DNA of 64,000 bases, taken from Phormidium tanganyikae FI6-MK23 (GTDB lineage Bacteria > Cyanobacteriota > Cyanobacteriia > Leptolyngbyales > Leptolyngbyaceae). The first letter of the stretch is position 1; the number at the start of each line of letters is the position of its first letter. Of the stretch, positions 9,898 through 61,278 are shown in pieces. The notes below the pieces were generated by a model that saw only the letters and a program-made list of their open reading frames with translations, ran no database searches and was not told the origin of the DNA. Where the stretch lies: NCBI GenBank assembly GCA_019359175.1, contig JAHHHU010000002.1:62001-126000 (forward strand). The letters are read 5' to 3'. A program made the translations under genes and the position numbers.

Positions 9898-10737
9898 TCA
9901 GGCTTCGTCTTTTGTCCAGGTAGATTTCCAGGCGAGCTGTGCTTCTGCGATCGATTGTTCGCGCCGTTTCTTTTGGTAGTCCCGCGCGAGTGTCTGAAAT
10001 TGCTGTTTGAGTTCGCGCAGTTTGCCGCGCCAGGTTGAGACGGCGGGATCGTTGAATTCGATTTCTGAAAGACGTAGATTGACAGCGACGATGTGCATCA
10101 AGGCAGTGAGCGCGGGGGGTGGCGATTCACTGTCCGAGGATCTTTCACTGGCACTGACCAGCACGTTGAGCAAGTTAGATGCACCCGAATCGCTGCTTTC
10201 TTTTGCAGCAGCATCAAGTACCGCTTGGGGGATGCGTTTGGGTAAGATTTCGGCTTCTTGTAGTAGGCGATTGGCGTTGCTTGAGGCGGATTTGAGCGTT
10301 TTGAAAATTGATCGCTCAATCTGTTCTTGCCAAATCGTTAAAGCTTCGAGCGGGGTCAGTGTGGGTTCGTCGGGTAGCTCAGGTTCGGTTCCCGCAAGCA
10401 GCGCTTCGAGTTCGTCAGGGAGGTCTTCGGGTTCGGGATCAATTTTAGTTTGCTCGATCGGGTAAAGCACATCGCTAAGATCGATTTCGGTCTGGCGCGC
10501 TAGAGATTGTAAGTCTTCTTGGAGTTTTTGGCGCTGGCTGAGAGAAAGCGCCAAAAACCGTTTGGGATAGTTCTCAGTGCAAATTCGGTAGCAGGACAGG
10601 ATGATCTGCTGCCTCACGGTTTGCCCAAGTTGTTTGAGATAGCCGCGATACGTCTCGGTGAAGGTATCGCCCATTGTTTCGATCTGTTGATCGAGTGCGG
10701 CGAGGCGTTGAGAAATTTGGTCAGTCGATCCAGCCAT
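9898..10737 (-). CDS. conserved-type protein of unknown function, helical
   Basis: A 279-residue protein I do not recognise by domain. It looks cytosolic and mostly helical: residues 1-90 contain amphipathic helices with one Cys-containing segment (IILSCYRICTENYPKRFL), a Pro/Glu/Asp-rich linker follows at about 98-125, and the C-terminal 60 residues are charged and coiled-coil-like (LRELKQQFQTLARDYQKKRREQ). There is no signal peptide or membrane span. The ATG is only 2 bp after the cobB stop, so it is surely translated from the same message as cobB. That tight coupling downstream of the pentose phosphate genes is the only clue to its role. Confidence 0.75.
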   Translation of the reverse strand: MAGSTDQISQRLAALDQQIETMGDTFTETYRGYLKQLGQTVRQQIILSCYRICTENYPKRFLALSLSQRQKLQEDLQSLARQTEIDLSDVLYPIEQTKIDPEPEDLPDELEALLAGTEPELPDEPTLTPLEALTIWQEQIERSIFKTLKSASSNANRLLQEAEILPKRIPQAVLDAAAKESSDSGASNLLNVLVSASERSSDSESPPPALTALMHIVAVNLRLSEIEFNDPAVSTWRGKLRELKQQFQTLARDYQKKRREQSIAEAQLAWKSTWTKDEA

Positions 10738-10739
10738 GT

Positions 10740-12215
10740 CTATTCTTTGAAGTTCTCTTCTTTTTTAGGATAGCGATCGCAGTTGAATTTGGCGCACTGT
10801 TGGACAAAGCGATCGGGAATTTCTGGCGATGCGCCCCAGTGTAAGTGCAGATAAGAAGCGTGTAAATTTGGCGATCGCCAACCGTCAAATTGTTCCGTTT
10901 CAGTAAATTGAAATAAAGGTTGATCGGGTGCGATTGTGGGAGTTGATCGATGAAATTCGTGCCCATGTACGATCGCGTTTTGGGTCACGATCGGACTGCT
11001 TTGCAGAGCGATCCCGCGACGATAGCCTAATGTTAATCGCGATCGCATTACCGTTGTAGTTGGGATTGCTCCGATCATTGGAAATGTATCACCAGCGAAA
11101 TCAACAATGCTTTCAGCGAGATACATTAATCCACCACATTCTGCATAGGTTGGCATTCCCGATTGAATTGCAGCTTGAATTGCTTTTCGTGTAGTTTGGT
11201 TTTCGCTTAACGTTGCTGCAAACATTTCAGGAAAGCCACCACCGAAATACAAACCGTCGATGTCATCGGGAAAATCGTCCTTTAGAGGACTCCATTCGAT
11301 CAGATCTGCGCCCGATCGTTTGAGTAATTCTAGGTTGTCTTCGTAATAGAAATTGAAGGCGGCATCGCGAGCGATCGCGATTCGGACAAGATGAGGTTTT
11401 TCGCTTCGTTGGGAGCGGCTTCTGCCCCCTAAATCCCCCAGAATGGGGGACTTTGAGGTCGCGAGGGTTGGCTCAAAGTCCCCCCATTTTGGGAGATTTA
11501 GGGGGCTTGCCGGATTCTCAATCGAAGCGAACTCCTTCTGGCGTACCGACGATAATATCGGCATTAATGCCGACCAATCGAAACAGGTTTCACCTAACTC
11601 CGCTAATCGATCGATTAATTCATTTAATCCGGGTAGTTCATCGGTCGGCACTAATCCTAAATGCCGATCGGGAATCTCGATCGCATCCTGCCGCCGTAAT
11701 ACGCCTAAAATCGGAATTTCTAACGGTTCTAATGCAGCCTTGAGCAATTCTAAATGTCGATCGCTTCCGACTCGATTGAGAACAACGCCTGCGAACTTTA
11801 AGCGCGGATCTAACGATCGATAACCATGCACGATCGCCGCCACCGAATTCGACAACCGACTACAATCAACCACGAATAAAATCGGCAAATCGAGCAATCG
11901 GGCAATGTGTGCGGTGCTGGCGAAATCCTTCTGCCCCGCTGCACCATCGAACAATCCCATCACGCCTTCAACGATCGCGATTTGTCCCGCCCGCTCTAAA
12001 AAACACTGCTGCACATACGCTTCAGAAGTCAGCATCGGGTCGAGATTGTAGCAAGCCTGCCCCGTGACGTGCCGATGAAACATTGGATCAATATAATCAG
12101 GCCCGACCTTAAACGATCGAACCTGCAAATTTCGCCGTCTGAGAGCCGCCAACAGCGCCAGCGTCGCCGTTGTTTTGCCCGCTCCACTCCGTTCCCCTGC
12201 AATCACAAAAGCCAT
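10740..12215 (-). CDS. cobB: cobyrinate a,c-diamide synthase, with an in-frame repeat insertion
   Basis: Glutamine- and ATP-dependent amidase (CobB/CbiA) that amidates carboxylates a and c of cobyrinate in cobalamin synthesis. The N-terminal dethiobiotin-synthetase-like domain starts with the P-loop GERSGAGKTTAT. The C-terminal class I glutaminase domain has the nucleophile in YAECGGLMYL and a late HASYLHLHWG histidine block. At 491 residues it is about 30-40 longer than usual, and the excess maps to one place: between the two domains lies a stretch encoded entirely by a palindromic repeat element (11401-11506). Both flanking domains look intact. The gene is 26 bp after opcA and 2 bp before the unknown gene at 9898. 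The symbol cbiA is equally valid. Confidence 0.93.
   Translation of the reverse strand: MAFVIAGERSGAGKTTATLALLAALRRRNLQVRSFKVGPDYIDPMFHRHVTGQACYNLDPMLTSEAYVQQCFLERAGQIAIVEGVMGLFDGAAGQKDFASTAHIARLLDLPILFVVDCSRLSNSVAAIVHGYRSLDPRLKFAGVVLNRVGSDRHLELLKAALEPLEIPILGVLRRQDAIEIPDRHLGLVPTDELPGLNELIDRLAELGETCFDWSALMPILSSVRQKEFASIENPASPLNLPKWGDFEPTLATSKSPILGDLGGRSRSQRSEKPHLVRIAIARDAAFNFYYEDNLELLKRSGADLIEWSPLKDDFPDDIDGLYFGGGFPEMFAATLSENQTTRKAIQAAIQSGMPTYAECGGLMYLAESIVDFAGDTFPMIGAIPTTTVMRSRLTLGYRRGIALQSSPIVTQNAIVHGHEFHRSTPTIAPDQPLFQFTETEQFDGWRSPNLHASYLHLHWGASPEIPDRFVQQCAKFNCDRYPKKEENFKE
11401..11506. repeat. palindromic repeat element, copy 1 (inside cobB)
   Basis: The core at 11424-11506 begins GCCCCCTAAATCCCCCA and ends GGGAGATTTAGGGGGC, an imperfect terminal inverted repeat, with a second inner pair (GGGGGACTTTGAG / CTCAAAGTCCCCC). 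The left flank TCGCTTCGTTG..GGCTTCTG is shared with copy 2 at 15252 onward and, in inverted orientation, with copy 3. Read on the minus strand it has no stop codon and is part of the cobB reading frame. Confidence 0.9.
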
Positions 12216-13679: not shown

Positions 13680-15209
13680 CTAGAGTCTTCGCCAACGGCG
13701 ACCATCGCGGTTAATCATTTGTTCCGCTTCGGAAGGTTCCCAGGTTCCGGCTTCATATTGAGGCATCAGGCGCGGATTGGTGGGCGCTTCCCAAGCAGAA
13801 AGGGCAGGAGTAACCACGCGCCAAGCCGCTTCAACCTCGTCGGAACGGGTGAATAGAGTTTGATCGCCCATCATGCAGTCGAGCAATAAGCGATCGTATG
13901 CCTCTCCTCCAGTTACGCCGAAAGAACTGCCGTAGCTGAAGTCCATGTCCACCGATCTGGTGCTCAGATCTGCACCCGGCATTTTGACTTCAAACCGCAT
14001 TCCAATTCCTTCATTGGGCTGGAGCCGCATCACGAGAACGTTTGCATTAGCTTGTTTTGCCGCAGACTGGAAAATCAGATAAGGAACGTCACGGAATTGA
14101 ATCGCAATTTCGCTGACTTTTTTCGGCAAGCGCTTTCCGGTTCGTAGATAGAATGGAACACCTTGCCACCGCCAGTTGTCCACCACGAACTTCATTGCGA
14201 CGTAAGTTGGCACAAGTGAATTCGGATCGACTCCAGGTTCTTCTCGGTAGGCTTGTACCTGTTTGCCTTTCATCCAGCCAGCACCGTACTGCCCACGAAC
14301 TGCCGAATTTTCTAGACGATGAGTATCCGCGAGACGAGTTGACTGAATCACTTTTACTTTTTCAGTCCGAATACTATCGGCATCGAGTGAGTTCGGCGGT
14401 TCCATAGCGGTTAGACAGAACAGTTGCATCAAATGGTTTTGCACCATGTCGCGCAATGCTCCGGAAGATTCGTAATATCCTGCGCGGTCTTCAACGCCAA
14501 CCGTCTCAGCTACCGTAATCTGAACATGATCGATGAATTGCCGATTCCACAATGGTTCAAAGATGGCATTGCCAAATCGGAACACTAATAAGTTTTGAAC
14601 GGTTTCTTTACCTAGATAGTGATCAATCCGGTAAACCTGATTTTCTTTACAAACTTTGTTAACAATGCGGTTAAGGTTTTGAGCAGAACTCAAATCGCGC
14701 CCAAACGGTTTCTCGATCACAAGCCGCGTTTTTTGGGCATCTTTCAGCATTCCCGCCTCGCCCAACTGCCGAATTGCTTCGGGAAAGAACTTTGGTGCAA
14801 CTGATAGATAGAAAACGCGATTTCCTCTTGTGCCGCGTTTGCCATCGATTTCAGCGAGTCGATCTTTGAGTTTCTGATAGCTTTCGGGATTGTCGATGTC
14901 TCCGGGACAGTAGAACAATCCTTGGGCGAAGTCTTGCCACAGCGCTTCAGAGCCGACTCCATCGGAAAATTCTTCGACTCCTTCGCGCATTTGTTCACGA
15001 AAATAGTCGTCACTCCATTCGCGTCGGGCAACTCCAACGATCGTTAATTCAGGCGGAAGGCGACGTTCACGTTTGAGGTGATAGAGCGCGGGAACGAGCT
15101 TACGTTTAGTTAAGTCACCCGATGCGCCGAAGAACACAATGATATTGGGTTCGGGCATCCGTTGTTGTTGTAGTCCAACCCGGAGCGGATTTTGTAAGAG
15201 AGTGACCAT
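13680..15209 (-). CDS. zwf: glucose-6-phosphate 1-dehydrogenase
   Basis: The 509-residue NADP-dependent dehydrogenase opening the oxidative pentose phosphate pathway, the main source of NADPH in the dark. The nucleotide-binding start is [20 protein letters not shown], the active-site motif is RIDHYLGKE with the catalytic His, and the EKPFGRDL and GGEAYDRLL blocks are intact. The N-terminus [15 protein letters not shown] matches the usual cyanobacterial start, which supports the ATG at 15209 although no clear ribosome binding site is seen. It lies between tal and opcA; a large repeat hairpin occupies the tal-zwf gap. Confidence 0.97.
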
Positions 15210-15251
15210 AGTGAGGTGATGAAGGATAAAAAATCAATACATATCAGTGTT

Positions 15252-15374
15252 CTCGCTTCGTTGTTTGGGGCTTCTGCCCCCTAAATCCCCCATTCCGGGG
15301 ATTTTGAAAGTTAGCTACTCTCTTAGGTTGAAGTCCCCCACTCGTGGGAGATTTAGGGGGCAAGCCCCAAACAA
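15252..15374. repeat. palindromic repeat element, copy 2 (between tal and zwf)
   Basis: Core 15276-15361 begins GCCCCCTAAATCCCCCA and ends GTGGGAGATTTAGGGGGC. It is extended by perfect 13-base outer arms, TTGTTTGGGGCTT (15261-15273) and AAGCCCCAAACAA (15362-15374), making a 114-bp palindrome. TCGCTTCGTTG immediately to the left (from 15252) is shared with copy 1. It fills most of the 210-bp gap between tal and zwf and would fold into a long hairpin in a fbp-tal-zwf-opcA transcript. Confidence 0.92.
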
Positions 15375-15419: not shown

Positions 15420-16568
15420 TTAGACTTTGGCGAGTCGATCGACCTTTTCTTGCATCGATTTCATCAGCGAGTTAAACGGCTGAACGAATTTATCGATGCC
15501 TTCTTCGAGCAGTTCGGTCATCACTTGCGCCAAGTTGATATCAATGTCGGGATCGTTGAGGCTTTTAATCAAGTTGTAAGCTTCATCCACATCGGTATCA
15601 ATCCGAGGAGCAACATCACAGTGATCCGCACAGGCTTCGATCGTATTCGGTGGCAAGGTATTCACCGTGTCTGCTCCGATCAATTCATCGACGTACATTA
15701 CATCGCTGTAGTCGGGGTTCTTGGTGCCGGTACTTGCCCAGAGGAGGCGTTGAACATTCGCACCTTTTTCTTTCAGCGCTAACCAACGGGGATCAGCGAT
15801 GATCTTTTTGTACTCTTGGTAGGCGATTTTCGCATTCGCGATCGCAACTTTTCCTTTAACGGCAGTCAGCTTCGCTTCTTCGGGCAAGCTATCAACTCCT
15901 TTGCTGAATTTCGCATCGATCATCTCATCGATTTTGATGTCGATCCGGCTGAGGAAGAAACTTGCAACCGAGGCAAGTTTGCTGATGTCTTCGCCTTTTT
16001 CAGCCCGTCTTTCAAGTCCGCGAATGTATGCCCAAGCGGTGTTGACGTAGCTTTGAACTGAGAAGAGTAAGGTTACGTTGACATTGATGCCATCTGCGAT
16101 CGCATCTTCCACCGCTGGTAAGCCTGCCGAAGTTCCAGGAATCTTGATCATCACGTTCGGGCGACCAATCTCTTTGTAGTAGCGACGGGCTTCGCTAATC
16201 GTTTTTTCCGTGTCGTTGGCAATGTTCGGTGGTACTTCGATGCTGATGTAGCCGTCTAATCCGCCCGATTCTTCGTAGATCGGAAAGAAGATGTCACACG
16301 CATTCCGAATGTCTTCAAAGATCAGCGATTCGTAGATCTCAAGCAGCGGTTTTCCAGCTTGAATGCCCGCATCAATGTCCGCGTCGTAAATTTTGTTTCC
16401 GTTAATCGCTTTCTCAAAAATGGCGGGGTTTGAAGTGAGTCCGCGCAATCCTCGATCGTCGATCATGCGCTTGAGTTCGCCGGATTGAATCAGATCACGG
16501 GTCAGATTATCCATCCAAATGCTTTGACCGTAATCTTTGATTTCTAGAAGATGATTTGCAACTGTCAT
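15420..16568 (-). CDS. tal: transaldolase
   Basis: A 382-residue transaldolase exchanging a three-carbon ketol unit between sedoheptulose-7-phosphate and glyceraldehyde-3-phosphate. The Schiff-base lysine is K142 in NVMIKIPGTSAG. Other family blocks are LRGLTSNPAIFEKA, VNVTLLFSVQSY and the late RLLWASTGTKNPDYSD. The length fits the longer, actinobacterial/cyanobacterial type rather than the E. coli TalB type (about 317). It lies directly after fbp (31 bp from the fbp stop to the tal ATG region, same strand), the order known from Nostoc-type fbp-tal-zwf-opcA operons. The ATG at 16568 is the first in frame. Confidence 0.96.
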   Translation of the reverse strand: MTVANHLLEIKDYGQSIWMDNLTRDLIQSGELKRMIDDRGLRGLTSNPAIFEKAINGNKIYDADIDAGIQAGKPLLEIYESLIFEDIRNACDIFFPIYEESGGLDGYISIEVPPNIANDTEKTISEARRYYKEIGRPNVMIKIPGTSAGLPAVEDAIADGINVNVTLLFSVQSYVNTAWAYIRGLERRAEKGEDISKLASVASFFLSRIDIKIDEMIDAKFSKGVDSLPEEAKLTAVKGKVAIANAKIAYQEYKKIIADPRWLALKEKGANVQRLLWASTGTKNPDYSDVMYVDELIGADTVNTLPPNTIEACADHCDVAPRIDTDVDEAYNLIKSLNDPDIDINLAQVMTELLEEGIDKFVQPFNSLMKSMQEKVDRLAKV

Positions 16569-31898: not shown

Positions 31899-32960
31899 AT
31901 GATTGTGGTTATGAAAGCTGGCTCCCCGGAAGCCGAGATTTCCCGCCTCACCGAAGAGTTTGTCAGTTGGGGACTCAGCCCCGAAAAGATCGTCGGAAAG
32001 CACAAAGTCGTCATCGGCTTGGTGGGTGAAACCGTCTCAATGGATCCGCTACAGATTCAGGAGTCCAGCGATTGGATTGAGCAAGTGTTAAGAGTTGAAC
32101 AACCTTTCAAACGCGCCAGCCGTGAGTATCGTCAAGGGGAAGCCAGCGAAGTTGCGATCCCAACGCCGAACGGTGTGATTTATATCGGCGAAAATCATCC
32201 GATCGTCACGGTAGCCGGCCCGTGTTCGGTTGAAAACGAAGAAATGATCATTGAAACTGCACATCGCGTTAAAGCTGCGGGCGCACAGTTTCTTAGAGGT
32301 GGCGCATACAAGCCTCGGACTTCTCCCTACGCATTCCAAGGACACGGAGAAAGCGCACTTGGCTTGCTTGCTGCTGCACGCGAAGCAACCGGATTGGGGA
32401 TCATCACAGAACTGATGGATGCTGCTGATCTTGAACCTTTAGCAGAAGTAGCTGACGTGATCCAAATTGGCGCACGCAATATGCAGAACTTCTCGCTGCT
32501 GAAAAAAGTTGGCGCACAGGATAAGCCGATTCTGCTCAAGCGCGGTATGGCAGCGACGATCGAAGATTGGTTAATGGCAGCCGAGTACATTTTGGCTGCT
32601 GGAAACCCGAATGTGATTCTCTGCGAACGCGGAATTCGGACATTCGATCGACAATATGCCCGCAACACTTTAGACCTGTCAGCGATCCCCGTTCTGAGAA
32701 CCTTGACTCACTTGCCGATCATGATTGATCCGAGTCACGGAACCGGACGTGCTGAGTACGTTCCCGCGATGGCAATGGCATCGATCGCTGCTGGAACTGA
32801 TTCGCTAATGATCGAAGTTCACCCGAATCCGAAGAAAGCGCTCTCTGATGGGCCGCAATCTCTGACACCGGATCTGTTTGATGAACTGATGAAGCAGCTT
32901 GCGATCGTCGGTAAACCACTCGGACGCTGGGTAGAACAACGTCAGCCTGTTACTGTCTAA
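31899..32960 (+). CDS. aroF: 3-deoxy-7-phosphoheptulonate synthase (DAHP synthase, AroG/F beta type)
   Basis: A 353-residue DAHP synthase, the first enzyme of the shikimate pathway, condensing phosphoenolpyruvate with erythrose-4-phosphate. The N-terminal ferredoxin-like regulatory domain (MIVVMKAGSPEAEI) is of the Thermotoga type. The TIM barrel contains IVTVAGPCSVEN, LRGGAYKPRTSPYAFQG, ILLKRGMAAT, CERGIRTF and MIDPSHGTGR. The start is set at 31899 with CAGCAGGA upstream; a longer frame from 31851 adds 16 unsupported residues. Symbols aroF/aroG are used loosely for this type. It ends in the strong terminator at 32979-33018. Erythrose-4-phosphate comes from the pentose phosphate genes also found in the window. 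Confidence 0.94.
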   Translation: MIVVMKAGSPEAEISRLTEEFVSWGLSPEKIVGKHKVVIGLVGETVSMDPLQIQESSDWIEQVLRVEQPFKRASREYRQGEASEVAIPTPNGVIYIGENHPIVTVAGPCSVENEEMIIETAHRVKAAGAQFLRGGAYKPRTSPYAFQGHGESALGLLAAAREATGLGIITELMDAADLEPLAEVADVIQIGARNMQNFSLLKKVGAQDKPILLKRGMAATIEDWLMAAEYILAAGNPNVILCERGIRTFDRQYARNTLDLSAIPVLRTLTHLPIMIDPSHGTGRAEYVPAMAMASIAAGTDSLMIEVHPNPKKALSDGPQSLTPDLFDELMKQLAIVGKPLGRWVEQRQPVTV

Positions 32961-33018: not shown

Positions 33019-33133
33019 GAAGCTCTATCGCTGTGGAGAGTCGATTTTGTCGATCGCTCAGTTAGAATCCTCGACTGGTTTAACTGTGATGTGAGTTCGA
33101 CAGAAGTAGCTGCTCCGATTTGAAATTCGGGAA

Positions 33134-33206
33134 GCCCCCTAAGTCCCCCAGAATGGGGGACTTTGAAGAACTCTTGAAATCCCCCAGAATGGGGGATTTA
33201 GGGGGC
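33134..33206. repeat. palindromic repeat element, copy 3 (upstream of the mechanosensitive channel gene)
   Basis: A 73-bp palindrome beginning GCCCCCTAAGTCCCCCA and ending TGGGGGATTTAGGGGGC, with the inner block CAGAATGGGGGA occurring in both halves. The right flank (CGCCTGCAACGAAACGA, 33212-33229) is the inverted form of the left flank of copies 1 and 2 (TCGCTTCGTTG), so copy 3 is in the opposite orientation. It sits 68 bp upstream of the next coding start, after the aroF terminator. Confidence 0.9.
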
Positions 33207-33274
33207 AGCTAGCGCCTGCAACGAAACGAAAAAGCGTGTCGAACTGACTTAACCTAGCAAAAAGGAGGTGTGAA

Positions 33275-34999
33275 TTGCGATCGCGAAGGTTTATCCTCAC
33301 TGTTGTCTTGAGCATCTTATTGCTTCTCGGTTCTTCTGCTTTCGCGCAGAATCCGATTTTACCGACTCCAAAACTGGAACTGCCGCAGATCAGCAATACT
33401 GAGGTTAGAACGGCTCCAGTGCGGTTAGATGGGCGAGAACTGTTTCGGATTGCAGTGCCAGCCGATGGAGAGTCAAATCAACCGAATCAACCGAATCAAA
33501 CGAGTGCGATCAAAGTTCGCGTGCAAGGGATCGAAGCGAATCTAAACCGGCTGGTAAATCAAACCAGTTCGGCTGTGCCTGAAGTCACTTCTGAGATCGA
33601 TTCCAGCAGCAATCTCCCGGTGATCACGGCAAATCGTCAGTATCTCATGACCGTGACGACGCTCGATGCTCAACTGCAAGGACAAGAACCCGCCACTTAT
33701 GCTCAAACTTTGACGCAGGTAATTCGAGATGCGTTGATCGCAGCAGGACGTGAACGGCGGCCAGAATTTATTACACAGCAGATTGGAAGAGCGATCGCGA
33801 TTATCGTAGGGATGTTTGTTTTGAGTTGGGCAGTGTCTCGGCTGCAATCCTATCTGCGAAAACAGCAGAAACGGCTTCAAGCTGAAACGCCAAATCTGTC
33901 AGAACTGCCGCCGAATGCGCCTGAAATGGCAAGTTCTCGCACTCAACTGATGGTGAAACAGCAGCTAGCAAATCGTCAGCAAAGAACAATGAAAGATGTT
34001 CAACGGCGATTTCTTCAGCTTGTTCAGTTGATCATTTGGGCGGCAGGTGGATTCATCATTTTGGGATTGTTTGCACAAACGCGATCGCTTCAACCCTTCG
34101 TGCTTTCGACACCGCTGAAGGTTCTGGGGATTATTGTTCTAACTTATCTAGTAATTCGATTTAGTGATTTGTTAATTGATCGTATTTTTAGCGCGCTAGA
34201 TATCTCACAGCAATCCGCGCCTGATGTTTCTCAACGGGTCGCGCTGCGTGTCTCTACGTTTTCCCGTGTTGTAAAAGGTTTGTCTACACTGGGTTGGATT
34301 AGCATTAGTTTAACTACAATTTTGTCAACCATCGGAATTCAAATTTTGCCATTACTAGCGGGTGCGGGAATTATTGGGATTGGTATCTCCTTAGCATCTC
34401 AGAACTTAATCAAAGACGTGATCAATGGATTTCTGATTCTATTAGAAGACCAGTACGCAGTTGGAGACGTGATCCAAGTTGGAACCATGAGCGGATTGGT
34501 TGAATCGATTAGTTTAAGAATCACGCAGATTCGGAATGCTGAAGGGCGATTGATCACGATTCCGAATAGCGCGATCGCAATCGTTGAGAATCTTTCTAAG
34601 GATTGGTCGCGGGTTGATTTGACGATCGCGATTGCCTACGATGCTGATATCGATCGAACAATTCATCTGATCGAAAAAGTTGGAGATGAAATCAGTCATG
34701 ATCTAGATTGGGAAACCAAAATACTAGAACCGCCGCAGGTTTTGGGAGTTGAAGATCTAAGTTATGAGGGTGTCACGTTACGGATTTGGATCAAAACTCA
34801 ACCTCTCCAACAGTGGCACGTTGGACGCGAGTTTCGGAAACGATTGAAGCAAGCGCTGGATACAGAAGGAATCTCGATCGGGATTCCGCAACAGTCTTTT
34901 TCAGTGCGTGGCAGGATCGATGATGAAATCTTTGACCATCACGAGGACAAAAATTCAGACCTTAATGTACGACCTTTACCTAAGCGATACCAAGAATGA
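33275..34999 (+). CDS. MscS family mechanosensitive ion channel with periplasmic domain
   Basis: A 574-residue membrane protein. A signal peptide (FILTVVLSILLLLGSSAFA) is followed by a periplasmic domain to about residue 165, then several membrane helices. The pore-lining MscS helix is LLAGAGIIGIGISLASQNL and the beta domain follows, FLILLEDQYAVGDVI and RLITIPNSAIAIVENL. It opens under membrane tension to release solutes. The start is TTG at 33275, decided by an almost perfect ribosome binding site, AAGGAGGTG (33262-33270). The next gene overlaps by 4 bp (ATGA). The Asn-Gln-Pro stretch near 70 is a short tandem repeat (NQPNQPNQ). Confidence 0.93.
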   Translation: MRSRRFILTVVLSILLLLGSSAFAQNPILPTPKLELPQISNTEVRTAPVRLDGRELFRIAVPADGESNQPNQPNQTSAIKVRVQGIEANLNRLVNQTSSAVPEVTSEIDSSSNLPVITANRQYLMTVTTLDAQLQGQEPATYAQTLTQVIRDALIAAGRERRPEFITQQIGRAIAIIVGMFVLSWAVSRLQSYLRKQQKRLQAETPNLSELPPNAPEMASSRTQLMVKQQLANRQQRTMKDVQRRFLQLVQLIIWAAGGFIILGLFAQTRSLQPFVLSTPLKVLGIIVLTYLVIRFSDLLIDRIFSALDISQQSAPDVSQRVALRVSTFSRVVKGLSTLGWISISLTTILSTIGIQILPLLAGAGIIGIGISLASQNLIKDVINGFLILLEDQYAVGDVIQVGTMSGLVESISLRITQIRNAEGRLITIPNSAIAIVENLSKDWSRVDLTIAIAYDADIDRTIHLIEKVGDEISHDLDWETKILEPPQVLGVEDLSYEGVTLRIWIKTQPLQQWHVGREFRKRLKQALDTEGISIGIPQQSFSVRGRIDDEIFDHHEDKNSDLNVRPLPKRYQE

Positions 35000-57700: not shown

Positions 57701-60700
57701 ATGGATTTGGTGTTCTCAATAATGATGATGCCGAACCTCAACTCTCGATCGTCTCTCGCACCGGATCGCAAGCAGAAGGCAACACAGGTAAGACTCCGTT
57801 TGAATTTGTAGTGTCGCTCAACAATCCGAGCAGCCAAGAAATTCGAGTAAACTACACGACGATCGATGTCAATGCGACAACCTCAGATTACGATGCGGCA
57901 AGCGGTACACTCATCTTTGCCCCCGGAGAAGAACAAAAAACGATCACCGTTAATATAATCGGGGATACGCTGCTTGAACCCGAAGAAGCTTTCCTCGTTC
58001 GATTGACCAATCCGACAAACGCAACGATTTCCGGCAGCAACGAAGCGAGAGGCACAATTCTCAACGACGATCAGGCAGTTCGTCCAACCATTCAGATCGA
58101 AGATGTAATCGCAAGTGAAGGCAGCACCAACACGACTTACACCTTCAAAGTGAAGCTCTCACAAGCGACGACCAATCCGGTTACAGTGCAATACCGTACC
58201 GTTGACGGAACCGCGACGATCGCAGATGGCGATTATGTCGGATTGACCACACCTGGAACGTTAACGTTTGCAGCGGGTGAAGTAGAGAAAGAGTTCTCGA
58301 TCGTGGTTCGGGGCGATACGAAATTTGAGCCGAACGAAACCTTCTTTGCGGAGCTACTCAGTCCCACTAATGCAGACTTATCTTCGGTCAGTCGGGCGCG
58401 GGCTGTGATCAACAACGATGATGCTCGACCCACGATCAGCATCGGGAATGTCGTAGTTTCAGAAGGTAACGTCGATGGTGATTTCACGAATGCGACGTTT
58501 ACCGTTTCGCTCTCAAACTCCAGCAGTGAAGCGATTACTGTCGATTACACCACTGTTGATGGAACGGCACAAGCGATCGACAACGATTATGAAACGACTT
58601 CAGGAAAACTAACGTTTGCGCCGGGTGCAACCAGTCAGCAAATCACCGTCCGAGTCCGAGGCGATCGCAAATTTGAATTCGATGAATCCTTCTCGATTCG
58701 CCTCTCATCGCCCACAAATGCCGACCTATTCACAGCGGCAAATCAGGGGATTGGAACGATTCTGAGCGATGACTTCCGACCGACGATCTCGATCGACGAT
58801 CCGACCCCAGTCCTCGAAGGCAATACGGGCACAACCGCAATCCGTTTCACCGTCCGCCTTTCCAATCCGAGCAGCGAAGTGATCACAACAAAATTCATCA
58901 CGAGAAACGGGACGGCAAATGAAGCCGATTACGCTACGGTGACAACTCCGACCACACTCACCTTTGCCCCCGGACAAACCGAACAAACGATCACCATTCA
59001 AGCGATCGCAGATACCCGATTTGAACTCGATGAAACGTTCACCGTCGAACTCAGCGATCCCACCAATGCCCAGATCGCAGACGGTAGCGCAACGGCAACG
59101 ATTCGCAATGATGACGCTCTCCCGCAATTGTCGATCGTGGCTGTCCCAACGAGCAAACCCGAAGGCAACAGCGGCATCACTCCGTTTACTTTCGAGGTGA
59201 GTCTGAGTGAAGCAAGTCCGACTCCGATTACCGCCAGCTACAGTACGGCAGATGGAACAGCGACGATCACGAACAATGATTATGTCAGAACTTCGGACAC
59301 GCTCACGTTTGGAGCAGGTGAAACGAAGAAAACTATCACGGTGAACGTATTAGGAGATACACAATTTGAAGGAGACGAAACGTTCCAGGTAACGTTAAGC
59401 AATCCGACAAATGCCACAATTCAAACCAATTCAGCAACGGTCGCGATCGCAGAAGATGACACTCCTCCAGGCGGCGATACGAGCAACAGTCTGTATGACA
59501 TCCTCTGGCGCAATCGTCGCACAGGCGAGAATATGCTGTGGCAACCTTCGGGATCACTGCTCGATCGAGAACTGCCTTTCTTAACGATTCCTGATCCGGA
59601 CTGGCAGATCGTTGGAAACGCTGATTTCAATGGCGATGGCATCAGTGATTTGCTCTGGCATCATCGCGTTACAGGCGATACGGCACTCTGGCAGATGTCT
59701 TCAGATCTCTCGGTCAAAGGAACCTTCTTACCTTCAACGGGACGCACAAACTGGGAAGTTCAAGCGATCGCGGACTTTAGCCGAGACGGAAAATTTGATA
59801 TTCTCTGGCGCAACGCTCAGACAGGCGAAAATGCCATCTGGTTTATGCGCGGTACAACGTTCGATAGCGCGGCTTATCCTACCAGAGTCAGCGATCCAAG
59901 CTGGAAGATTGCAACAGTTGCCGACTTTGATAACGATGGTAACGCTGATATTTTCTGGTCAAACTCGCGCACCGGAGACACTGCACTTTGGTTGATGGAC
60001 GGAGCGGCAATCAAAGATAGCCGCTTCTTGCCGCAAGTTTCAGATTTAGCATGGCGACCTGTTGCATCGGGTGACTTGAACCGAGACGGATTTGTTGATA
60101 TTCTCTGGCGCAACGGGCGGAATGGGCAGAACGTAATCTGGCTGATGCGAAACGGGCAACTCGATCGAGATAGCTATCTCCCAGCAGTTCCGGCAACGGG
60201 TTGGCAAGTCGAAAACTTATTCGATTTCGATGGCGACCAAAGCCTAGACATTCTCTGGCGCAATTCGGTCACGCAAGAATCAGTGATCTGGTTCCTCAAT
60301 CGAGGACAGTTTGGCATCAATAGTTATTTACCAACTTTGCCCGATCGCAATTGGTCGATCGAAGGAGTCGGCAAGTTCAGCACACAAAGCAAAGGTGAAA
60401 TCCTGCTGCGAAATTCTCAAACTGGAGAAAATCGCGTCTGGCGGCTCAATCTCAATCCGTTTAATCGCGCCATGCTGATCGAGTCTCAGCCCGATCGCGA
60501 TTGGGAAATCCAAGGAACCGGAGACTTCGATCTCAATGGTTCTGCTGATATTGTCTGGCGCAATCTGCGAACCCGCGAACTTTCGATCTGGCTCACCCAG
60601 AAAGGTCAGGTGACGAGCAAAGTTTCAGTGCCGATCGCATTACAAGCCTCAACGGATTGGTCGATTCGAGCGATCGGAGATTTTAGCGGCGATGGCACTC

Positions 60701-61278
60701 CGGAGCTAGTTTGGAGCAACCGTCGCACCGGAGATGTCTCAATGTGGATATTCAACGGCACTCAATTCTCTTCTGGCTTCCTCTTGCCGAATCCGGGCTT
60801 GGATTGGCAGATCAACGGAGCCGCAGACATGAACGCCGATCGTAATCTCGATTTAGTTTGGCGCAATACGGTCACGGGTGAGATTGCCTACTGGCTATTC
60901 GATCGAACTCAACTACTGCGCGGCATTACTGCTCCCGCTATCAGTCTCAATTGGCAAATCAAAGGCTTTGGGGACTTTAACCGCGACGGGCAAACTGACC
61001 TGCTGTGGAACAATCTAGCGACAGGCGAAACTTCGCTCTGGCTGATGAACGGGACGCAGTTGAGTCGCGGCGTGGTGCTGCCGACTGTGCCGCTAGAGTG
61101 GGAAAGTGTCGGCATGGGTGACTACAACCAAGACGGACAGCTTGATTTGCTGTGGCGCAATCGTTTGAGCGGCTTGAATGTAGTGTGGTATCTCAACAAC
61201 GGAAACTTTGCTTTTGACTCGTATATTCCGGCATTGCTGGATCTCGGTTGGCAAGTGAAAGGAATCGATGACTTCTAG
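51718..61278 (+). CDS. giant DUF4347 / propeller-like / Calx-beta / VCBS repeat protein
   Basis: A 3186-residue protein (about 330 kDa). Residues 42-200 are a DUF4347 domain (HLVSHGKSGAIQLG, ILIYGCDVAQGD). Residues about 210-1195 hold sixteen PD40/TolB-like repeats, each with a pattern like VAFTSxASNLVxxDTNxxxDVF. Residues 1195-2585 hold twelve Calx-beta repeats (SEGNTG, FxVxLSxAS, TFAPGxTxKTI, IxNDD) likely to bind calcium. Residues 2588-3186 carry twelve VCBS/FG-GAP-like repeats (DILWRNxxTGENxxW, DFNGDG). There is no classical signal peptide or RTX nonapeptide repeat. The start at 51718 has GGAGAAG before it. It is very likely a surface or secreted adhesin; how it is exported is unclear. 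Confidence 0.93.
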   Translation: MEFAGLPNWNRPLSTEIDSIPTIAIPQNYLNQPPSLHNRASSLIVIDSSVPNYQQLIAGIQPDANVLILDPAQDAIAQITQALLGQSGISSVHLVSHGKSGAIQLGETWLDCASLDRYQSEFQQWAKSLTDDADILIYGCDVAQGDAGQAFINQLSQPTGADIAASSDLTGSATLNGDWALEVNTGEIGASIAFTAETRANYAGILPVDLISVGNPTLVKGSVGLENIGRNSVSGNGRYVVFTSKATLSANDANGTTDVFLYDRQTDAVTIISRNATNTGSASGTSLNPVISDDGNSVAFVSNANDLVASMTGNTSQVDNIFVWERSGGTITLVSRDADGKSGTRGSSAPSISDNGNRIAFQTQAQLLSTDGTLARDVYVWDRGTNDLTHVSKSRIQLSSRAQGADSPVISGDGNYVAFASLYRNLSFNDTNLAQDIFLWRQSDDSIVNLTTAGNAPSMAPVISQDGSRVAFVSLANNFAPDTNGVPDVFVWTRSGFDGSGLPEGTVQLVSVNSTGNTSGNGAGGFGSNLGSQNPVISRNGEAIAFTSSSSDLVAGDTNDKVDVFVRNLVSNQTLLVSRNSAGAIGNDDSGNQTLSADGTRVAFTSLATNLAAGDTNAQYDVFVRDISAGQPDSNKTFLISRTSTGGVGNNVSGIIPNAIEGSLSVPIISSDGTTVAFVSLANNLSLEDNNALFDGFLVPVTSGDATLISRRSADPNLVSRTGSGASTVGTNSISENGRYIVFTSAAPEIVDGDTNGVSDVFLRDRQTGTTTLISQGTAISNGASGNATISADGRYIVFTSAASNLVTGDNNNEVDIFWVDRETQQIRLVSRAVGGATSANAASFNPVLSANGLFVAFTSTASNLVSSDTNNQQDVFLWNSQDNSIAIVSRGSTESDGTSEQPVISSNGRYVAFVSAASNLVNGDTNTQRDVFVWDRQSGTSTLVSRATGETGVISDGDSYQVSMSLDGKTIAFTSTATNLAGTADGENDEDVFVRNLDTNTTSHVSVNQSGGYSVSPDFTPLKASNPIVSGNGKFVVFASDFGDLVATDTNGVSDVFRRDLETGTTQLISINKDGTDSGNGTPGADGGTGSGSGTGSFYPIVSNDGRYVVFNSFSNNLADGDTNNALDVFVRDAVSGFTTLVSRIPSETNSGRGGSFNAVISGDGRYLAFNSVATDLIPRDLNGSSDVFGLNLATTVDLSIDKETIAENTPAGSVQYKIRRNQTNGELTVKLAIDASSTASIEDYNFTADPSLNFTINGSELTIRFATGVTEGILTLTPIDDIAIETEEVLNLSLVATPDYAVSESFGTTSLKITDNDIPILVSISNVTEDSKEGNTGEKAFTFQVKLSAPATTAPVTVSYATLVGTADNNDFVAATGDLRFDIGDPDTKTVTVLVKGDAQFEQDETFSVVLRDPSANARLANQSAIATIENDDTAPTITIAGADSITEGDTGTQPYTFTVSLSEASSTEIKVDYVVRDLTTISGSDYAAIPAGTLTFAPGVTNQTITVLINGDRLFEENEQFQIELSNPTGAILPDEQKLKTGTITDNDTAPSITIEAVPQQSEETSPYNFVVKLSEASGRPVTVKYDTIAVTATAGEDFTTISDTLTFAVGETEKTIAISITDDTKREQNETFSVKLTNPTNATITTDSAAASIVDNDPIPTVAIANVSQLEGNTGDTPLQFEVTLSNASDQEIVLNYATKDGTAQVTDNDYQAATGTIRFTPGTTSQTITVNAKGDTKREQTEAFSVELSTTTPNLVTIPTTAIGVGTIQSDDTTPPTISVSPATVSEGGELSFVVTLSDTSSEEIRVDFLTSDGTATLSDSDYTQRTTETLIFAPNERTKTITVQTTTDNKLEEDETINLTLRNPIGATLSGTGTVIGTIRNDDQRPTIGIASTPLSEDNPLAANYPFTIRLSNSTTQTVTVKYRTIDDTATVADSDYVATQGTVTFNPGDIEKTITVRANADRKFEPTERFIVRLEDPVNADLSASATDGFGVLNNDDAEPQLSIVSRTGSQAEGNTGKTPFEFVVSLNNPSSQEIRVNYTTIDVNATTSDYDAASGTLIFAPGEEQKTITVNIIGDTLLEPEEAFLVRLTNPTNATISGSNEARGTILNDDQAVRPTIQIEDVIASEGSTNTTYTFKVKLSQATTNPVTVQYRTVDGTATIADGDYVGLTTPGTLTFAAGEVEKEFSIVVRGDTKFEPNETFFAELLSPTNADLSSVSRARAVINNDDARPTISIGNVVVSEGNVDGDFTNATFTVSLSNSSSEAITVDYTTVDGTAQAIDNDYETTSGKLTFAPGATSQQITVRVRGDRKFEFDESFSIRLSSPTNADLFTAANQGIGTILSDDFRPTISIDDPTPVLEGNTGTTAIRFTVRLSNPSSEVITTKFITRNGTANEADYATVTTPTTLTFAPGQTEQTITIQAIADTRFELDETFTVELSDPTNAQIADGSATATIRNDDALPQLSIVAVPTSKPEGNSGITPFTFEVSLSEASPTPITASYSTADGTATITNNDYVRTSDTLTFGAGETKKTITVNVLGDTQFEGDETFQVTLSNPTNATIQTNSATVAIAEDDTPPGGDTSNSLYDILWRNRRTGENMLWQPSGSLLDRELPFLTIPDPDWQIVGNADFNGDGISDLLWHHRVTGDTALWQMSSDLSVKGTFLPSTGRTNWEVQAIADFSRDGKFDILWRNAQTGENAIWFMRGTTFDSAAYPTRVSDPSWKIATVADFDNDGNADIFWSNSRTGDTALWLMDGAAIKDSRFLPQVSDLAWRPVASGDLNRDGFVDILWRNGRNGQNVIWLMRNGQLDRDSYLPAVPATGWQVENLFDFDGDQSLDILWRNSVTQESVIWFLNRGQFGINSYLPTLPDRNWSIEGVGKFSTQSKGEILLRNSQTGENRVWRLNLNPFNRAMLIESQPDRDWEIQGTGDFDLNGSADIVWRNLRTRELSIWLTQKGQVTSKVSVPIALQASTDWSIRAIGDFSGDGTPELVWSNRRTGDVSMWIFNGTQFSSGFLLPNPGLDWQINGAADMNADRNLDLVWRNTVTGEIAYWLFDRTQLLRGITAPAISLNWQIKGFGDFNRDGQTDLLWNNLATGETSLWLMNGTQLSRGVVLPTVPLEWESVGMGDYNQDGQLDLLWRNRLSGLNVVWYLNNGNFAFDSYIPALLDLGWQVKGIDDF

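Follow-up and report, generated by a model that had tools for sequence, protein, structure and literature searches.

The cobB locus of Phormidium tanganyikae FI6-MK23 raises the question of how a dispersed palindromic repeat can come to lie within the reading frame of a conserved enzyme. The window (the whole stretch of 64,000 nucleotides that was analysed) contains a frame of 491 codons that crosses such a repeat without a stop. NCBIfam NF002204 identified its product as the vitamin B12 enzyme CobB (E=1e-165), and the architecture of CbiA (residues 3–185) and GATase_3 (residues 277–461; both Pfam) exceeded the curated cut-offs. The P-loop residues and the glutaminase ECGG fell in invariant alignment columns; for both we presume the roles usually given to them. 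A first-pass annotation of the sequence had placed a palindromic repeat in frame at 11401–11506, between the two domains. This was confirmed, and the stretch is the core of a dispersed element. Features are listed in Table 1.

Table 1. Coordinates of the cobB gene, its repeat-derived parts and related elements (window positions unless a locus is named)
Feature	Position	Strand	Basis or remark
cobB (cobyrinic acid a,c-diamide synthase), 491 aa, contains the element	10740..12215	-	ORF, Pfam and NCBIfam
MITE-derived segment in cobB, about residues 221–276; one terminal repeat still recognisable and one eroded	~11390..11553	-	Alignment to full MITE copies of the source genome
Palindromic core: two REP-like arms (11425–11457, 11472–11504) around a short loop	11424..11506		Arms 73% complementary; fold
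MITE terminal inverted repeat remnant, 10/14 identical to AACGTCAGTTCGAC, read as coding	11540..11553	-	Alignment; identity counted by eye
Intergenic element copy	15243..15366		Window repeat match
Intergenic element copy	33124..33233		Window repeat match
IS982-family IS, ~1 kb, open transposase frame, MITE-like ends and 5-bp duplication	L255:523-1535 (own C75)		
Internally deleted relative of the IS982-family IS, 683 bp	L249:528-1210		

The source genome comprises 5.74 Mb in 77 contigs. A 130-nt stretch of cobB gave 99 matches in it (both strands and arms counted), and the best non-self match was 86% identical over query positions 3–130 (E=6.7e-35). A search with the peptide gave at least 90 own-genome matches among those listed, counted in the same way, some of them outside the 45 places that were examined. 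These places were drawn from the genome matches and local BLAST, and more copies exist. Within the window, the repeat had been described as common to sites at 15252 and 33134, and matches were indeed found at 15276–15308, 33134–33166 and 33170–33202. The first copy lies between genes at 13680–15209 and 15420–16568, which we take to be zwf-like and tal-like; the second lies between a presumably DAHP-synthase-like gene ending at 32960 and a presumably MscS-like gene starting at 33275. Both of these gaps are short, and the copies may affect transcription there. No Rfam family reached the gathering threshold within positions 10500–34000 of the window. About 10 degenerate repeats, spaced roughly 150 nt apart, were also seen at 59496–61196; we take them to resemble an FG-GAP/VCBS-type repeat protein.

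As many CobB linkers are Pro/Ser-rich or tandem, a low-complexity linker might resemble the repeat by coincidence. At cobB this was refuted, because the homology to other copies extends beyond the palindrome and spans the element including its non-palindromic flanks, at the E value given above. The probability of such a coincidence is negligible.

Aligned full copies stretched past the equivalents of 11401–11506 on both sides and ended in AACGTCAGTTCGAC / GTCGAACTGACGTT. Both AACGTCAGTTCGAC terminal inverted repeats (≤4 mismatches) were present in 12 of the 30 full-core copies tested, with lengths of 164–184 bp. Target duplications of these 12 were perfect over 5 bp in five cases and matched at four of five positions in three. 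A search with the end sequences found an IS982-family IS in the same genome. Its transposase matches NF033520 (E=4.9e-78), its ends are AACGTGAGTTCGA with an AAATT duplication, and subterminal AGAAGTGGC is common to the IS and the MITE. The full copies are MITEs with ends shared with this resident IS. Judging from these shared sequences, the MITE was probably mobilised by the resident IS982-family transposase. Half-copies, consisting of one flank and one REP-like arm, were common, and these could spread by a route other than that of the full MITE.

Insertion of a full MITE would lengthen a gene by a multiple of three in 3 of the 12 cases, each of which has at least one open frame. Across 28 cores, 53 of the 168 frame-by-copy combinations were open anyway, and an open frame was dropped as a sign of selection. 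Further MITE copies were seen inside short ORFs of the source genome (L238, L234), with peptides containing PPFWGT.

The copy in cobB retains about 164 bp, i.e. the whole core and one recognisable end. In the alignment to full MITEs no target duplication was seen, and the second terminal repeat was not recognisable. Because both ends and the duplication are not present in the cobB copy itself, its segment is named MITE-derived, and its origin by transposition is drawn from the better-preserved copies. The first-pass annotation was right about the core, the open frame and the linker peptides that it quoted. Its boundaries were too narrow: the terminal repeat and both flanks are coding as well, and the coded segment comprises about 55 residues instead of the roughly 35 proposed.

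Both CobB domains stay under purifying selection, with dN/dS values of 0.05–0.15 between the source genome and five of seven congeners. An AlphaFold2 model (33-sequence alignment) had a mean pLDDT of 86, with residues 232–269 below 50. The model predicts two well-defined domains joined by a disordered linker, and translation of the insert probably yields a floppy spacer. Solved structures gave no usable match, and the linker was therefore assessed on this model alone: no CobB sequence match was found there at E 0.001, and the 50 Foldseek rows listed were all glutamine-amidotransferase chains, alone or in CTP synthases or other complexes.

The congeners (G001–G007) showed different states of the linker. 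Their CobBs, as delimited here, were 446–453 aa long in all seven cases, and the source CobB is longer by about the length of the insert, as had been claimed. G001, G003 and G004 have a short linker with no recognisable element, and G002, G005 and G007 have a half-element. The linker of G006 holds a different palindrome, with 43 matches in G006 (both strands), two in the source genome and none in G003. In a tree the source genome stands beside G005 and G007 (support 0.78). The genus may have acquired the insertion in cobB just once, in its ancestor. The half-elements of G002, G005 and G007 may all stem from one old insertion, so that the events within the genus are not exactly countable.

The differing states of the congeners, together with purifying selection on both sides of the insert, support the central claim of the first-pass annotation: a dispersed repeat has become coding sequence in cobB. 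Among the CobBs examined, the same linker peptide did not occur without the DNA repeat. The CobB linker of Phormidesmis priestleyi BC1401 belongs to the repeat family of the window, and its peptide comes with the DNA repeat; the CobB of P. priestleyi ULC007 is without it.

An assembly error or a decaying pseudogene would also place a repeat in this gene. The element is present in many copies, a typical source of mis-joins; moreover, the assembly is split into many contigs. However, the locus lies within a 407-kb contig, the frame is intact and dN/dS is low on both sides of the insert. The same repeat family is found in this linker in other assemblies, and other genes have the same in-frame pattern. 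Both possibilities were rejected on frame, dN/dS and recurrence, and we consider them very improbable.

A genome search for other coding regions with the repeat had been suggested, and it found further in-frame genes. Four of the 45 places in the source genome were inside conserved genes (at least 60 codons on both sides), and all were in frame: cobB, bioF, an egtB/senA-like gene and an ALDH-like gene. The four copies had the same polarity, although n is only 4. The cleanest insertion of the set is that of bioF (L017:1274-2593, own C13; TIGR00858 above cut-off), with a 162-nt in-frame copy of the MITE family. Its insertion site is empty in all seven congeners, and the gene gains 54 codons compared to G002, G005, G006 and G007.

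The egtB/senA-like gene did not reach the curated cut-offs for TIGR03440 and NF041186. A half-element was found inside its FGE domain in the source genome, G003 and G006; the element was absent from this site in G001, G004, G005 and G007, and G002 gave no gene match. In the egtB-like gene of G001, a full in-frame palindrome lies at a second site, the DinB-FGE linker (L333, ~919-1008). The ALDH-like gene (PF00171), which we presume to be similar to LuxC, contains a full element in the source genome and a half-like one in G001, G004 and G005. G003 and G006 lack it, and G002 and G007 gave no match. A NACHT gene of G002 (STAND-type, cut by the contig end) has an in-frame element between EAD4 and NACHT (L330, 1901-1999). 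The position is thus interdomain in cobB and in the G001 egtB-like and G002 NACHT genes. Three more places with long open frames (own C4, G003, G006) were discarded because the repeat proved to lie at the frame start or outside it, and not within a gene.

The CobB linker was then compared across cyanobacteria in 80 named loci. These are the best-scoring 80 of 578; Nostocales are strongly represented among them, and they are not independent of each other. Some CobBs occur both among the genome loci with G handles and among the 80; the repeat and matching statistics use the 80 only. The linker core was 42–246 nt long and widely divergent in sequence. With a threshold of an inverted-repeat stem ≥9 or a tandem run ≥12, a palindrome or tandem was found in 31/80 linkers, compared to 9/400 CobB-domain, 12/400 other coding and 55/400 intergenic windows. 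The remaining 49/80 linkers had neither. Stems ≥9 alone occurred in 14/80 linkers and 4/400 domain windows, and any of three repeat criteria applied to 46/80 and 47/400, respectively.

Matches (1e-3) to 1.33 Mb of flanking DNA were found for 36/80 linkers and 42/400 domain windows (odds ratio 7.0, Fisher p 8e-12, uncorrected for relatedness). The same pool was matched by 132/400 intergenic and 168/400 coding windows, the latter including syntenic orthologues.

Dispersed copies were found for three other linker repeats besides the family of the window. The cobB of Nostoc mirabile CHAB5784 (L115, 9369-10979) carries a 134-bp in-frame linker MITE with ends CAATACTG/CAGTATTG, flanked by 10-bp direct repeats (read by eye); together these make 144 nt, a multiple of three. 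The best other copy in its genome is 97% identical, and among the matches listed at least 23 other places, this copy included, cover nearly the whole length. The MITE is near-fresh, and it adjoins a GACGCGATTAATCGCGTC palindrome. The linker palindrome of G056, a Phormidium tenue and a Pseudanabaena record had at least 60–81 matches per genome (both strands counted). Other cyanobacterial CobB linkers consist of tandem repeats. The CobB search in G027 gave 444 first-look candidates, many rows of which matched the repeat-coded peptide only; the element family seems strongly expanded there.

Two proteins, CobQ and the E2 acyltransferase, served as the only controls in 30 genomes. The core of CobQ, whose domains are similar to those of CobB, had a length SD of 2.4 residues (30 genomes) versus 22.2 for CobB (28/30 measured, two missed the motif). 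One of the three repeat criteria applied to 2/29 of E2 linker 1 and 3/17 of E2 linker 2, which could be delimited in 29 and 17 of the 30 genomes (the rest missed the motif). The CobB value there was 22/30, which is inflated because these genomes were picked after the CobB linkers had been seen. By these controls, the flexibility of a linker is not in itself a predictor of repeats. The CobB linker is unusually permissive or unusually exposed, and it is a recurrent repeat sink in cyanobacteria, occupied by unrelated repeats.

Such recurrence could also mean that insertion is targeted, i.e. that the linker DNA is preferred by several transposases or by recombination between repeats. One narrow stretch is reused by unrelated repeats, and in Nostoc mirabile a MITE sits beside another palindrome. 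Against this, the repeats differ in kind (two MITE-like families, other palindromes and tandems), no shared target was noticed, and tolerance accounts for the same pattern. We regard targeting as quite improbable.

It is likewise improbable that the repeat is retained for a function, with an mRNA hairpin that delays the ribosome between the domains or a peptide that alters CobB activity. The cobB repeat as RNA has a stable predicted fold (-69.6 kcal/mol, z -7.35), and this hairpin sits exactly between the domains. Different palindromes occupy the same place by lineage, with the excess of stems given above, and the element is interdomain in two other genes. However, no element is recognisable in the short linkers of three congeners, many lineages carry tandem repeats in place of hairpins or are free of repeats there, and CobB linkers have no sequence in common.

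Our preferred reading, which we consider highly probable, is that a MITE inserted into the cobB linker, was tolerated and then eroded, and that this linker is a recurrent harbour for repeats. A non-autonomous IS982-type MITE, palindromic and REP-like in its core, would have entered the interdomain linker at random, through the machinery that mobilises the repeats, with selection removing frame-breaking events. The copy would have suited cobB both in its net length and in one of its reading frames, and the insertion would therefore have been tolerated. The insert, probably translated as a disordered spacer, would then have eroded in frame. We infer transposition by the resident IS982, translation and near-neutrality of the peptide. 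The cyanobacterial linker would be under almost no sequence constraint beyond joining the domains and would for this reason harbour whichever repeat families each lineage carries. A wider version is tentative and in our view rather doubtful: the linker as a phylum-wide harbour repeatedly rebuilt from mobile and repetitive DNA, where in each lineage much of the protein segment would be recent repeat DNA read in frame, with turnover that may be favoured, and not only tolerated, through an effect of hairpin or spacer on co-translational folding.

In-frame palindromes in genes are already known from Rickettsia palindromic elements (RPEs), intragenic REPs and ERIC-type fusions. RPEs were reportedly described by Ogata in 2000 and 2002. 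The sections of two later papers used here describe RPEs as palindromes of ~100–150 bp, in frame at tolerated positions of unrelated conserved protein genes (PMC10969869, PMC2229807). The cobB element resembles them as an in-frame coding palindrome in several unrelated conserved genes with a stable predicted hairpin. It differs in its cyanobacterial host, in being a MITE that has 5-bp duplications and is partnered by an IS982-family IS, and in a linker that is reused by unrelated repeats; the target-duplication status of RPEs is given as '?' in a table of PMC2229807. The cobB insert is best described as a MITE-derived, RPE-like coding palindrome, where the likeness is one of behaviour.

Intragenic REPs are palindromes in coding regions, often dimers coding 20–30 aa, and are suggested to be neutral in flexible linkers or loops, according to the excerpts of PMC3733652 considered here. 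The MITE core likewise consists of two REP-like units in inverted orientation, and half-copies occur too, but no GTAG/CGTC tag was noticed in it. Neither CobB nor a single linker reused by several repeat families is mentioned in the same excerpts. ERIC, YPAL and the short Correia element, as far as covered in the sections of PMC2229807 used here, have terminal repeats, open frames and in-frame fusions, some to conserved proteins. These three properties are shared by the MITE described here, which differs in its host, its IS982-family partner and the presence/absence states in congeners. Compared to the resident IS, the MITE has common ends and the 5-bp duplication but is only 164–184 bp long and has no transposase gene.

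Among the open-licence PMC papers listed, none reported repeats in the CobB linker or this linker as a recurrent site, and the repeated invasion of one linker by unrelated elements across a phylum seems to be new. As CobB linkers are often non-homologous between lineages, they should be masked in phylogeny. The repeated arrival of unrelated repeats in one linker makes CobB a natural replicate experiment on tolerated interdomain segments, and these replicates bear on how new protein segments arise. Compared to the known systems, the cobB element brings cyanobacteria into the range of protein-coding palindromes; the MITE anatomy and the empty sites make the step from selfish DNA to protein datable and testable, and one linker is a recurrent place where mobile DNA turns into protein.
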